Shown here one piece after another: positions 39,637-61,773 of a stretch of 64,000 nt of DNA. The notes under the pieces were generated by a model that saw only the letters and a program-made list of their open reading frames with translations, ran no database searches and was not told the DNA's origin. This stretch comes from Acidobacteriota bacterium (GTDB lineage: Bacteria; Acidobacteriota; Blastocatellia; Pyrinomonadales; Pyrinomonadaceae), in NCBI GenBank assembly GCA_003385635.1, contig QQUY01000001.1:2023001-2087000 (forward strand). The letters run 5' to 3'. Each line of letters starts with the position of its first letter. Position 1 is the first letter of the stretch. A program made the position numbers and the translations under genes.

Positions 39637-41853
39637 CTAAGAAACCGCTGGTCGCTGCGGATTCGGCCAACGATCTGCCAAACCTGGATTTCCGTGAGAT
39701 CCAACTGTGAATCCGGTGTTGAGCAACTCTGCAACCTCGGATAACGCCAATGGCTTCGAGAAAAGGTACCCTTGTCCGAACTCGCATCCCAAAGCCCGCA
39801 AGTGGTCCATCTGATCAGCGGTTTCGATCCCTTCAGCGATCACGTCCAGATCCAGGGTTTTTGCCATCGCCACGATCGTGGCCACGAGTTTCCCGTTTCC
39901 TGTCTCACTGCCGATCCCAGATACGAACGAACGGTCGATCTTTAGTGTCGATACCGGAAACCGGTGAAGATAGCTCAGTGAAGAATATCCGGTTCCGAAG
40001 TCGTCGATCGATACGCGAACGCCCATCCCGCGTATCCTCATCAGCGCCTCGATGGCTGTCTCGGCATTGTCCATTACCGCGCTTTCCGTGATCTCAAGCT
40101 TCAATTGGGAAGCCGCAATCCCGGTCGAATCGAGCACTTCCTTAATATGTTCCAGTATGTCCGGATCCGCGAAATGCCTGCCCGACAAGTTGACACTGAT
40201 AAAGAGCGGAGAATCGGGTAGATACTCTTGTGTCCAATCCGCAGTGCGTTGACAAGCCTCTTTAAGGATCCATCGTGTCAGCGGTACGATAAGGCCCGTA
40301 GATTCGCAGACAGGCACAAACTCGACAGGCGAAACGAACCCTCTAACCGGATGGTTCCACCGGACAAGCGCTTCTAGGCCGCTGATAGCGAGAGTTTCCA
40401 GATCGACTATCGGCTGATAGTTAAGCATGAGTTCGTTGTTTTCGATCGCCTGACGCACGTCCGTTTCTATCTCGAGTTGTTTCACCGCGTACTCGTGCAT
40501 CGCTTTGTCGAACACCACGAAGGGTTTCTTGGATTCCTTTGCGTGATACATAGCTATGTCCGAGTCCCGGATGACCTCCTCGGCACTGTCGTACCCACCT
40601 TCGCAGATAACTATCCCGATACTCACTCCAGTGTAGATCTGCTTTTCGTCGATCTCTACCGGACGTGCTATCGCTTCAGCTATGGAGGAAGCGAACGATT
40701 CGGCAGCCTCGTACGACTCCGGTCGCTCGAGGATCACGCCGAACTCGTCGCCTCCTAAGCGAGAGACCACTTTCCTACCGCATTCAAGAGTTTCGAGGCG
40801 GTTCGCGATCCGTTTCAGATACTGGTCGCCGAACGAATGGCCGAAGCTGTCGTTAATCCTTTTGAACCGGTTCAGATCCAGGAACAGGACCGCAAAATGT
40901 TTTCCGGTACCTGACCGGCGGGAAGCCAGCAGTTCGCCGATACGTTTTCTGAAGTAATTCCGGTTCGGAAGGCCGGTCAACGAATCGTGAAACGCGGCGT
41001 GCCGGAATTTTTCCCTGCTCTTTCGCAGCGCGACCTCGGCCTTGTCCTTTTGTGCGACGTGATGTTCCAGTTCCTCGACGTGCCTTTCGGCTTGTTCCGC
41101 TCTTTCCCTTTCTACCTGCTCGGCTTTGGCCGAAGTCTTCTTGACGTCGGTAACGTACCGCCAGAAGGTGAAGTAGATGAGTCCGGCAGTCGCGAGCCCG
41201 ATGCCCACCAAGAGGGAATTGAAACTATAGATCGCAGTAGCAATGAGACCGGCGAAAAATGCTGCGGTCAAATACAGAATCAGGCCGTTCAGACAATTGA
41301 GATACCAGACTTCCCAGAGCGACCGTCCAGTCTTCAGGGACGTAAACAGAGTGACAAGAACAGAGTTCGTAAGAAAGAGCGTCAGTGCTAAAAATGCTAG
41401 CGTGACGGCCAGGCCGGAGGCGTCGCCGGCGCTGGTCAAAACTTCGGGCGCTCCGATGATCAGTTCTGCGGCCTTTACGGTTGCATAAGTCGAGATCGCG
41501 GCGATCGCGCCATTGAGCAGAATCGTCCGGGTTGTAATGTTGATCCCGCGCTTCTTGAAACTTGCTGATGCTGTGATCGATTCAGCGAAAGCCAGGAGGG
41601 TGGCTATCTCGAGGCCATAGAGAATGATAGCCAGAAAGACCAGTATGTCCGATACGGTGATGTGTACTTTCACCCTGGGTAGCTGGATCTGGGCAAAGGT
41701 ACTGAATATCAAAGTTGCCGAGACTATGACGAACAAACGTCCGTCGACGGAAGCTACCGGAAACGAGTACACGGATGCCCCGAGCGCCGCGAGAGAGAAT
41801 GCGAACGCCCCGATATAGGCAATGTCTAGTCGATTCTTCAATCTGTCTTTCAC
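39637..41853 (-). CDS. Membrane GGDEF-EAL protein (cyclic di-GMP turnover)
   Basis: A 738-residue protein with an N-terminal membrane module of about seven or eight helices (1-235), a coiled coil (about 240-285), a GGDEF domain (285-450) and an EAL domain (460-705). The diguanylate cyclase motif is intact (RLGGDEFGV, 365-373), and the EAL motif is intact (GLEALVRWNHP, Glu494-Leu496), as are DDFGTGYSSL and LKIDRSFV of the phosphodiesterase. Both activities are therefore possible, with one perhaps dominant. No I-site RxxD is evident just before GGDEF (residues VVSRL). The sensor module looks like a MASE-type membrane domain, unnamed here. The end of the gene overlaps the border of the repeat region. 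Confidence 0.92.
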   Translation of the reverse strand: MKDRLKNRLDIAYIGAFAFSLAALGASVYSFPVASVDGRLFVIVSATLIFSTFAQIQLPRVKVHITVSDILVFLAIILYGLEIATLLAFAESITASASFKKRGINITTRTILLNGAIAAISTYATVKAAELIIGAPEVLTSAGDASGLAVTLAFLALTLFLTNSVLVTLFTSLKTGRSLWEVWYLNCLNGLILYLTAAFFAGLIATAIYSFNSLLVGIGLATAGLIYFTFWRYVTDVKKTSAKAEQVERERAEQAERHVEELEHHVAQKDKAEVALRKSREKFRHAAFHDSLTGLPNRNYFRKRIGELLASRRSGTGKHFAVLFLDLNRFKRINDSFGHSFGDQYLKRIANRLETLECGRKVVSRLGGDEFGVILERPESYEAAESFASSIAEAIARPVEIDEKQIYTGVSIGIVICEGGYDSAEEVIRDSDIAMYHAKESKKPFVVFDKAMHEYAVKQLEIETDVRQAIENNELMLNYQPIVDLETLAISGLEALVRWNHPVRGFVSPVEFVPVCESTGLIVPLTRWILKEACQRTADWTQEYLPDSPLFISVNLSGRHFADPDILEHIKEVLDSTGIAASQLKLEITESAVMDNAETAIEALMRIRGMGVRVSIDDFGTGYSSLSYLHRFPVSTLKIDRSFVSGIGSETGNGKLVATIVAMAKTLDLDVIAEGIETADQMDHLRALGCEFGQGYLFSKPLALSEVAELLNTGFTVGSHGNPGLADRWPNPQRPAVS

Positions 41854-42049: not shown

Positions 42050-42087
42050 AAAGGACCACGCAGGTGTAACCCTTCGTGGTCCTTTTT
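42050..42087. terminator. Hairpin terminator after the S8 protease gene
   Basis: An 11-bp perfect stem, AAAGGACCACG with CGTGGTCCTTT, and a 14-base loop. It lies between the S8 gene (ends 42112) and the GGDEF-EAL gene, both on the minus strand. The minus-side T stretch is interrupted (CCTTTCCTTT); the plus side has five Ts. Confidence 0.7.
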
Positions 42088-42111: not shown

Positions 42112-43605
42112 TTATCTCATATGGCTTGAGTTGTCTCCCGCCACCATCGGACTTGAACTGCCAAACGTCGTGTCGCTCATCAACATTCCGTCGCTCATCA
42201 GCATTCCATCGCTCATCAGCATTCCGTCACTGAGGAGCATGCCGTCACTCATAAGCATTCCGGTGCCAAAAGACTCGCTCCAGTCGTAGAACAACACGCC
42301 GTCGCTTATCAGCATTCCGTCGCTTATCAGCATTCCGTCGCTCATCAGCATTCCATCACTCATCAGCATTCCGTCACTGATAAGCATTCCGTCGCTGAGG
42401 AGCATTCCATCGCTCAACAGCATCCCGAGCCCGTAGACCTTCTGGTAGTTCGTGATGAGTTTGGTACTTTGGATCCAGCCTTTGTCGACAATGATTCCTT
42501 GCGACCAGAGCACGGTTTCACCTTCGATCTCGGACTCCTGCACCGGCATCGACGTGAGCATCGGGTAGTTTAATGAGGTCGAGTTCCCTATACCGCGCTT
42601 TACCAGCTTCGCGAGCCGAATCGACCCCTCAATGTTCAGTAGACCCGCACCCTGCTCAAGATGATTCGCTCCGTGAACCGGCTGAGCCGTGTACTGGAGG
42701 ATCATCTTCACCATATTTGGCGTCAGATCGGGATTCGCCTGAAGCATCAGAGCTACCGCTCCGCTGACGATCGGCGTCGACATTGATGTGCCGCTCAGGT
42801 ACATCTTGGTAGTCGAGTTGAGAAGATCGTTGCTGACGCGCAGTTCCGGATAGTCCCTGAACAGCTTGCTGTGCTTGTCTGCGGACGAGATGATCTTGTT
42901 GCCCGGCGCGACGAGGTCCGGCTTGATCAGATGATCGTAAATCCTGGTACCTTCCGAATCCACGTATGACGACCGGGTGGGACCGCGCGAACTGAATGTC
43001 GTGATCCCGTCGTCGCTCCTTGCGTCAGTACCGTAAGTGTTTGCCGCTCCCACCGTGATAGCGGTAGGGTCATTGCCAGGGGCGTGGATAGCGCCGTAGA
43101 GTTTCTGGCCTTCAGAACCTCTCCCGTTGTTGCCCGCTGCTGCAACTACGACAATTCCGGCAGACGTCAATTTTCTTACCGCACGGCAGATCGGATCGTT
43201 ACGCCATGTTTCGATTGCGGGCGTACCCAGGCTCAGATTCACGACTTTGATGTTGTATCGGCCGCGGTTGGCATATATCCACTCAAGAGCGTTGATCAGG
43301 TCCGCGGTCCGCCCAGTGCCCCTCGAATTCAGGACCTTCAGATTTATGACGTCCGCCTTTGTCGCGATCCCCTCGTATTCGTTCATTTCACCGACGTTAC
43401 CGTTCCCACCTACCGCAAGCGCGGCTACGTGGGTTCCGTGTCCGAACTCGTCGTCGAGTTCACTGTCGCTAGTGAAATCCTTGCTGTACTTGAATCTGCT
43501 GCTAAGAAGGCCGCCGGAAAATGATGAGTGTCCACGGTGAATTCCGGAATCCAGGATCGCGATCCCGATCCCCTTACCGTCATAGTTCCCCGACACACTT
43601 CTCAT
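42112..43605 (-). CDS. S8 (subtilisin) protease catalytic domain with SDGML repeat tail; separated from its prodomain
   Basis: A 497-residue subtilase. The Asp (GIAILDSGI, Asp19), His (FGHGTHVAAL) and Ser (SGTSMSTPIVSGAVALM) triad is intact, as is the oxyanion region AAAGNNG. The C-terminal ~95 residues hold 12 copies of the hexapeptide GML(L/I/M)SD in blocks of seven and five. The ORF begins abruptly with MRSVSGNYDGKGIG and has no signal peptide. The upstream ORF (43602-44594) ends with a prodomain-like sequence (SFGHIEDTTGYSA) and overlaps by four bases (ATGA). In related S8 proteins these parts are continuous, so this is a split or frameshifted protease. See finding. Confidence 0.9.
   Translation of the reverse strand: MRSVSGNYDGKGIGIAILDSGIHRGHSSFSGGLLSSRFKYSKDFTSDSELDDEFGHGTHVAALAVGGNGNVGEMNEYEGIATKADVINLKVLNSRGTGRTADLINALEWIYANRGRYNIKVVNLSLGTPAIETWRNDPICRAVRKLTSAGIVVVAAAGNNGRGSEGQKLYGAIHAPGNDPTAITVGAANTYGTDARSDDGITTFSSRGPTRSSYVDSEGTRIYDHLIKPDLVAPGNKIISSADKHSKLFRDYPELRVSNDLLNSTTKMYLSGTSMSTPIVSGAVALMLQANPDLTPNMVKMILQYTAQPVHGANHLEQGAGLLNIEGSIRLAKLVKRGIGNSTSLNYPMLTSMPVQESEIEGETVLWSQGIIVDKGWIQSTKLITNYQKVYGLGMLLSDGMLLSDGMLISDGMLMSDGMLMSDGMLISDGMLISDGVLFYDWSESFGTGMLMSDGMLLSDGMLMSDGMLMSDGMLMSDTTFGSSSPMVAGDNSSHMR
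42172..42429. repeat. 18-bp coding repeat array (SDGML hexapeptides)
   Basis: Two blocks, about 42172-42263 and 42292-42429, contain five and seven copies of an 18-bp unit (plus strand cgctcatcagcattccgt, with variants). They are separated by a 39-base non-repeat part encoding VLFYDWSESFGT. All units are in frame with the S8 protease and differ mostly at the third and fifth residues (Leu, Ile, Met). Confidence 0.9.
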
Positions 43606-44594
43606 GCTGAGTACCCGGTCGTATCCTCGATATGACCGAAGGAGACCATCTCGTGGTCGAGCGAAAGGTGTCTGGCGGACCGATCAGCGGCAATTGTCTG
43701 CGCAAGCGAAAGCGGTAGGTTGAGCTCAAGAACCCCCATATTTGCAGCCTCGCTTCTGATCTCGATGCCGTGACGGCCAAGCAGGTCCCTGAGAGATCCC
43801 GAGCGCACATCGTCGGCCTGCAATATCACGCTGACGATTTCATTGGGTGACCGCTTAGCGATCGCCTCGCTCAGATCCGGAGAGATCTTTGACCCTACGA
43901 ACGGATCTTCGAGCGTTTCACGATCTGCCTCAACATCCACCTTTGTGAAACGTTTTCTGAGGATCGGATCGGTCGCGACGATCCTTTCAAAATCCGCATT
44001 TGTACCAGAGGTTATGACGATCAAGGATCCTGACTCGACCGCTTCTCTCAGGCTTTTAGCTGCGGCTGCACCCATCGAAGGATTCACCCGCGCGAATGCG
44101 TCGAGCTCGAAGACATCCAGAATGCCCTTCTCTCTGCCCGACGTGATCGATTCGACAGCCTGTTTGACAAGCGCGTCGAATACTGCCGGATCTCCGTCTG
44201 AATCTTTGACCAATGCCGGTATATCAAGCCTGTACAGCCGTTTCTTTTTGAGCTTTGAAGGCACCCTCTCGCTCGAGATCCGATAAGCGAGATTATCGAC
44301 GATCGCCGAATGGCTGAGGTAATACTCGCCAACCAGGACGGCATTCCCGGATACGGACCTGGAAAGCACCGACGCAACGTCGGCGACCTCCTTGTCGAGC
44401 CCGTTGGCGTTCGCCAGAGCACTTGACTCCGCGAGCGACGTCACATCGATCAGGTACCCGGACTTCTTTGCGCCGTCTGCACCTTCAGCGGAGTCAGCCG
44501 CACGCATTTGTGAATTTACCGGAATTCCAGACCAGCTTAAGGCCAGCACAAGAACACCGAGAACTGCGAGGAAAGATAAAGCTCTTGTTTTCAT
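43602..44594 (-). CDS. Signal peptide and prodomain of the S8 protease (separate ORF)
   Basis: A 330-residue exported protein. The track starts at 44663, but Met at 44594 begins a clear signal peptide (MKTRALSFLAVLGVLVLALSWSGIPVNSQ) and is preceded by GGGAGTGAG, so it is chosen. The rest is a two-part prodomain-like region; the C-terminal part (NEIVSVILQADDVRSGSLRDLLGRHGIEI ... LELNLPLSLAQTIAADRSARHLSLDHEM) has the ferredoxin-like inhibitor/propeptide pattern that precedes subtilase catalytic domains. It ends at TGA overlapping the ATG of the catalytic ORF by ATGA. One missing base would restore a single ORF. Confidence 0.8.
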   Translation of the reverse strand: MKTRALSFLAVLGVLVLALSWSGIPVNSQMRAADSAEGADGAKKSGYLIDVTSLAESSALANANGLDKEVADVASVLSRSVSGNAVLVGEYYLSHSAIVDNLAYRISSERVPSKLKKKRLYRLDIPALVKDSDGDPAVFDALVKQAVESITSGREKGILDVFELDAFARVNPSMGAAAAKSLREAVESGSLIVITSGTNADFERIVATDPILRKRFTKVDVEADRETLEDPFVGSKISPDLSEAIAKRSPNEIVSVILQADDVRSGSLRDLLGRHGIEIRSEAANMGVLELNLPLSLAQTIAADRSARHLSLDHEMVSFGHIEDTTGYSA

Positions 44595-60065: not shown

Positions 60066-60155
<90 letters not shown>

Positions 60156-61291: not shown

Positions 61292-61381
61292 GGAAAGGTG
61301 CAGGAGTGGTTGAACTGGCAGCACTGGAAATGCTGTGTGCCCTTTCGGGTACCGTGGGTTCGAATCCCACCCTTTCCGCCA
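61292..61381 (+). tRNA. tRNA-Ser (anticodon GGA)
   Basis: A 90-base class II tRNA with encoded CCA. The acceptor stem GGAAAGG pairs with CCTTTCC. The anticodon stem CAGCA/TGCTG closes the loop CTGGAAA, anticodon GGA, reading UCC and UCU. The variable arm and T arm closely match the upstream tRNA-Ser(CGA), suggesting duplication. Confidence 0.95.
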
Positions 61382-61450: not shown

Positions 61451-61550
61451 GGCTTCAGGCTCCGCACAAGGTTTGAATTGTGAACCCCGCCAGACCGGGA
61501 ACGGAGCAACGGTAGCAACTTCATCCTGTGTTGCGGTTAAGTCTGAAGCC
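61451..61550 (+). ncRNA. ffs: Signal recognition particle RNA (small bacterial type)
   Basis: The RNA scaffold that binds Ffh for co-translational targeting. The termini pair perfectly: GGCTTCAG with CTGAAGCC. Inside, CCGCACAAGG pairs imperfectly with CCTGTGTTGCGG. The tip is the diagnostic Ffh-binding domain: CCG-CCAGA-CCG-GGAA-CGG-AGCAA-CGG, with a GGAA tetraloop and the symmetric loop CCAGA/AGCAA. It is the 4.5S-like form without an Alu domain. Not in the ORF track; it lies between tRNA-Ser(GGA) and the dnaX region, a classic location. The rest of the gap (61551-61773) shows no gene. Confidence 0.92.
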
Positions 61551-61773
61551 TCCAAATTGCTACGCAAGCTTTGTCATCCCTGGTTTGGTACTCAGCCAAT
61601 CCGATTCAGGGATTACAGTTCATCGTGATCGGCTCCAGGAGGTTCACCGCATCCTTCCGTGACATATCTGCGTTGCACGCTATTTGAACCCGAGCGGTCG
61701 CCTTATTCTGAAGGGCTTGTCGTTTAGTCCTTGATTTCCAGCCAATCCATTATCAAGTAAACTAGTCGCTACT

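Follow-up and report, generated by a model that had tools for sequence, protein, structure and literature searches.

The window, which is the whole stretch of 64,000 nucleotides that was analysed, carries on its reverse strand a subtilase locus in which two open reading frames meet at an ATGA overlap and are followed by the gene of a membrane GGDEF-EAL protein. The features are, in the order of transcription:

43602..44594, (-): ORF1, with signal peptide, ClpB-like pseudo-AAA+ domain and I9-like propeptide; ATG start, 330 amino acids, ending ...HIEDTTGYSA* at the frame break
44511..44594, (-): signal-peptide-like N-terminus of ORF1 (MKTRALSFLAVLGVLVLALSWSGIPVNS), seen by sequence and hydropathy in ORF1 and 29 relatives; boundary approximate
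43902..44462, (-): degenerate large AAA+ subdomain of a ClpB first nucleotide-binding domain (NBD1), ORF1 residues 45-231, with GEYYLSHSA in place of Walker A and ILDVFEL in place of Walker B
43614..43901, (-): I9-like subtilisin propeptide, ORF1 residues 232-327, predicted beta-alpha-beta-beta-alpha-beta
43602..43605, (-): ATGA overlap of the ORF1 stop and the ORF2 start, a one-nucleotide frame break just inside the N-terminus of the mature protease
42112..43605, (-): ORF2, in which an S8 subtilase catalytic domain is followed by a C-terminal tail; ATG start, 497 amino acids, beginning MRSVSG
42170..42426, (-): C-terminal hexapeptide repeats of the protease, ([MIV]L[MLI]SDG)n or, written more broadly, [MILV]L[MLIV][SG]DG; boundaries approximate
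42050..42083, (-): terminator-like stem-loop 3' of ORF2, found by sequence in a scan in which such sites were overall no commoner than expected by chance
39637..41853, (-): gene of the membrane GGDEF-EAL protein, 738 amino acids with about 6 transmembrane helices, whose orthologue is the neighbour of the unbroken protease gene in most of the long-type relatives described below

A sequence-only reading had placed a signal peptide and a prodomain in ORF1 and a complete Asp-His-Ser triad without a signal in ORF2, the two frames being different and joined at the ATGA, and this description was borne out. Pfam finds in ORF2 a Peptidase_S8 domain that covers the whole model (positions 1-288 of 288, E=6.7e-50). 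Its residues Asp19, His56, Asn159 and Ser274 are all present in columns which are invariant among the aligned relatives, the triad of the subtilases is complete, and ORF2 has no signal peptide. ORF1 does begin with a signal-peptide-like hydrophobic stretch; most of what had been taken for its prodomain is, however, a ClpB-type AAA+ domain which that reading had missed. Coding scores are good for both frames. The hexapeptide repeats of the tail are conserved in kind among relatives, which differ from each other in the variable residues, and no fold was predicted for them with confidence in a full-length model of a relative.

The ORF2 frame is open for 82 nucleotides upstream of the ORF1 stop, and the two frames differ by one nucleotide. 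In the relatives the conserved TTG is separated from an invariant arginine by exactly four residues, and the same length is obtained here by reading TTG-YSA and the methionine of ORF2 before Arg2. As the spacing of the relatives is matched at the junction, a one-nucleotide net shift accounts for the break. Residue 6 of ORF2 aligns with residue 19 of mature subtilisin (BPN'), and ORF2 lacks approximately the first 13 residues of the mature enzyme. The cut thus falls within the mature enzyme and is at odds with a clean separation of prodomain and protease.

Relatives of the gene were collected in several ways. ORF2, searched against 97 genomes, had matches in each of them, and the close relatives (about 50-60% identity) are single open frames, most of 630-930 amino acids. 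They fall into two architectures, a long one with an ORF1-like region (about 810-990 amino acids) and a short one with the I9-like region alone (about 640-700 amino acids). In the host family, the Pyrinomonadaceae, 119 genomes were searched with a profile of the ORF1-like prodomain, and 73 of them yielded 108 full-length copies in all; a 109th match, G058, was to ClpB only and is not counted. Among the 108, the window copy alone has a short frame that lies within its contig. The frames of five more (G420:C49, G029:C870, G388:C320, G054:C539 and G414:C43) are short and, as judged by position, reach contig edges, and the other 102 complete copies occupy one frame each. When one genome of each species was scanned, 19 named loci were obtained; each is a metagenome-assembled record of Acidobacteria, and several are named Pyrinomonadaceae. 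In three genomes of the same genus (G001, G002 and G003) a single-ORF protease gene is followed by the same GGDEF-EAL gene. As the GGDEF-EAL orthologue adjoins the protease in relatives including these loci, the window gene is the syntenic orthologue of single-ORF genes. The comparison with close relatives which the sequence-only reading had proposed hence gave a uniform answer: a layout with two reading frames occurs in none of the relatives in the 97-genome search, the syntenic loci and the 119 host-family genomes.

Two of the four causes considered in that reading, which had named sequencing error, frameshift mutation, programmed frameshifting and a trans-acting prodomain, lose their footing with these results. 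Programmed -1 frameshifting would fuse ORF1 and ORF2 to one secreted protein, and a -1 shift within the 82-nucleotide frame overlap would indeed give the length found in relatives; the overlap, however, holds no slippery heptamer, and the two-frame layout is not conserved, since each of the 102 other complete copies is read in a single frame. Such a mechanism is extremely improbable. A true two-gene system, with ORF2 translated by stop-start coupling and ORF1 serving as a prodomain in trans, is suggested by the ATGA overlap, which is typical of translational coupling, and by the ability of subtilisin prodomains to act in trans. Against it speak the absence of the layout from all relatives examined, the lack of a signal peptide in ORF2, the lack of a Shine-Dalgarno sequence within 20 nucleotides of its ATG (the nearest similar sequence lies 22-23 nucleotides before the ATG), and the position of the cut within the mature enzyme, so that we regard a two-gene system as very unlikely.

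The other two causes stood up to the comparison, since the split occurs in no relative, and they are given equal weight, each at a little less than an even chance. An indel introduced in sequencing or assembly would mean that the cell has one intact gene. It would agree with the intactness of all relatives and with the state of both halves, which look undecayed and under selection, and a single nucleotide would account for the whole pattern. The plain error is weakened as a reading by the nature of the site, which is not a homopolymer, and by the lack of any second broken gene among those scanned: none was found among the window genes checked by family models, in 28 kinase genes of the genome, or in its strong, clear ABC domain matches. 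Three short kinase matches proved on re-reading to be intact and in one frame, and one partial ABC match (C1:1724346) may not be an ABC gene. Completeness of the assembly is 92.9%, level with genomes of the same genus (85-94%). Indels thus seem to be rare in this assembly, though a lone error may still have occurred at the break site. A real and recent frameshift mutation, on the other hand, would have inactivated this copy and left a pseudogene in the making. The apparent scarcity of indels in the rest of the assembly argues for it, as does an intact paralogue of the same architecture in the same genome (near 2264331 of contig C1, 903 amino acids, with Clp and subtilase models both matching one reading frame), by which the loss could be tolerated; neither half, however, has decayed further, and the change is seen in one strain.

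The part of ORF1 which had passed for an ordinary prodomain was traced to ClpB. With ORF1 as query, proteins of about 870 amino acids were matched across the class over residues 45-231, and the member of this group in the same genome is ClpB by NCBIfam. A profile of 16 prodomains matched the NBD1 of ClpB (1jbk) with E=3e-49, with ClpC, Hsp104 and ClpA ranking behind. An AlphaFold2 model of ORF1 (mean pLDDT 80) gave in Foldseek a match to the same structure with E=4e-14, a TM score (TMt) of 0.82 and an rmsd of 2.0, so that homology and fold both identify the large AAA+ subdomain of a ClpB-type NBD1. The residues of an ATPase (Walker A lysine, Walker B, arginine finger and pore loop) are, as a set, not retained. 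Among 30 distinct protease-fused copies Walker A is lost in 29 and kept only in L048 (G023:C23), as the Walker A-like GETGVGKAA; no copy has pore loop 1 (YRG), and most have lost the arginine-finger pair. In a tree the whole set of protease-fused copies parts from the whole set of true Clp copies by a single change (100/99), a topology consistent with a single capture of a ClpB domain, and for most of the protease-fused copies ClpB is the nearest Clp class, with up to 48.6% identity. In four pairs of relatives the dN/dS of the domain was 0.13-0.33, with dS near saturation, and it was similar to that of the catalytic domain where it could be estimated, again with dS near saturation. The protease-fused copies examined have a signal-peptide-like hydrophobic stretch. 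The full-length prodomain occurs only in the host family among the matches listed from 297 genomes of the phylum, and weaker fused copies may exist elsewhere. We thus read the pseudo-AAA+ domain as a probable exaptation which arose once, is confined to the family and has been kept by purifying selection. With Walker A lost, the domain is unlikely to use nucleotides outside the cytoplasm.

Between this domain and the protease lie residues 232-327 of ORF1, for which a beta-alpha-beta-beta-alpha-beta fold ahead of the catalytic domain is predicted in both the ORF1 model and the full-length model of a relative, as in I9 propeptides. The latter model has a mean pLDDT of 61 and aligns with pro-subtilisin structures over 430-476 columns. 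By sequence these residues found no I9 match in Pfam or PDB, and their predicted membership in I9 is based on fold and context.

With anatomy, homology, uniqueness of the split and synteny directly established, we are highly confident that the locus is one gene broken by a private one-nucleotide change, the intact form of which is a secreted preproprotease. Its signal peptide is followed by an AAA+ domain which descends from NBD1 of ClpB and is exported and no ATPase, and then come the I9-like propeptide, the S8 domain and the hexapeptide-repeat tail. The split in itself is ordinary, and the gene should be regarded as broken or wrongly sequenced; the novelty lies in the prodomain. In the open-access literature searched, which misses most subscription papers, no description was found of the order signal peptide, ClpB NBD1-derived pseudo-AAA+ domain, I9, S8 and repeats.

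Export, processing and loss of activity we infer as follows. In the relatives, by what is common in S8 biology, the intact preproprotease would be exported by Sec, the I9-like propeptide would help the catalytic domain to fold, autocleavage would occur near GHxxxTTG, and the pseudo-AAA+ and I9 parts would be released together. An export signal and a propeptide in one chain with the protease, as in secreted S8 enzymes, are present in these relatives and, owing to the frame break, not in this genome. As sequenced, ORF1 would here be exported without its protease, whereas ORF2, if translated through reinitiation at the stop-start overlap, would be confined to the cytoplasm and lack the first mature residues, so that the window copy, if its sequence is correct, is probably inactive.

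The surroundings of the gene are conserved as well. A GGDEF-EAL orthologue follows the protease in the same orientation in 19 distinct long-type loci, with a gap of 97-283 nucleotides in 15 measured pairs and of about 1 kb in a few others. The orthologues have 6-7 transmembrane helices, and most copies keep the GGDEF and EAL motifs. A second, PAS-containing type of GGDEF-EAL protein is encoded near some protease paralogues (L118 and L098), and in G021 the GGDEF-EAL neighbour is itself split into two frames (L072 8503-10756, equal to L117 9301-11554). An operon of protease and GGDEF-EAL gene was considered and is not assumed because a terminator-like stem and a promoter-like site lie between the two genes. 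Rfam detected no riboswitch between them in the window and five related loci; in the window it reported a small SRP RNA and two tRNA genes (61453-61551, 60066-60152 and 61292-61378). The conserved adjacency of a cyclic di-GMP gene suggests that protein degradation has a regulatory setting in this lineage of Acidobacteria.

Taken together, it is reasonably probable that we are dealing with family-specific secreted subtilases whose prodomain includes an AAA+ domain which was taken from ClpB, is exported and does not depend on ATP. Selection would have kept this domain after its ATPase motifs were lost, and it would serve as a scaffold for folding, as an inhibitor or in targeting, in a conserved neighbourhood with a membrane cyclic di-GMP (GGDEF-EAL) gene. 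Since the pseudo-AAA+ domain adjoins the I9-like part, we favour among these candidate roles that of a scaffold or of an inhibitor in the proform. A domain of a cytoplasmic, ATP-driven disaggregase would thereby have been exported to a normally ATP-free environment and reused in a protease precursor, which raises the question whether the AAA+ fold can serve as a passive chaperone or inhibitor. With the Walker A-like motif retained in L048, intermediates of the decay can be compared.

In comparison with known systems, the protease shares with S8 enzymes having an I9 propeptide, such as pro-subtilisin E (3whi) and ProN-Tk-SP (3afg), the catalytic Asp, His and Ser, the oxyanion Asn and the order of propeptide and catalytic domain, with the beta-alpha-beta-beta-alpha-beta propeptide being a prediction here. 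In contrast to these it has a tail of hexapeptide repeats and, after the signal peptide and ahead of the I9-like propeptide, an additional ClpB-derived domain of about 190 residues, and the window copy is split by the frame break. With the NBD1 of ClpB/Hsp104 (1jbk) it has the fold and a clear homology over the large AAA+ subdomain in common; unlike there, the domain is exported and solitary. Small subdomain, N domain, middle domain and NBD2 are all missing, and Walker A, the pore loop and most arginine-finger residues have been lost. A degenerate ClpB-like domain is also found in the SMAX1-type proteins, the only, weak, Pfam match of ORF1 and a late match in the PDB. These are intracellular signalling repressors of plants and, in contrast to the proteins described here, are neither proteases nor exported. 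A further parallel is the LapD/LapG system, in which a membrane GGDEF-EAL receptor controls a periplasmic protease, LapG, which is not a subtilase. What the two have in common is the conserved position of a membrane GGDEF-EAL gene beside an exported-protease gene. The GGDEF-EAL protein at this locus, whose control of the protease would be hypothetical, differs from LapD in having 6-7 transmembrane helices instead of a periplasmic sensor and in that most copies keep their GGDEF and EAL motifs.
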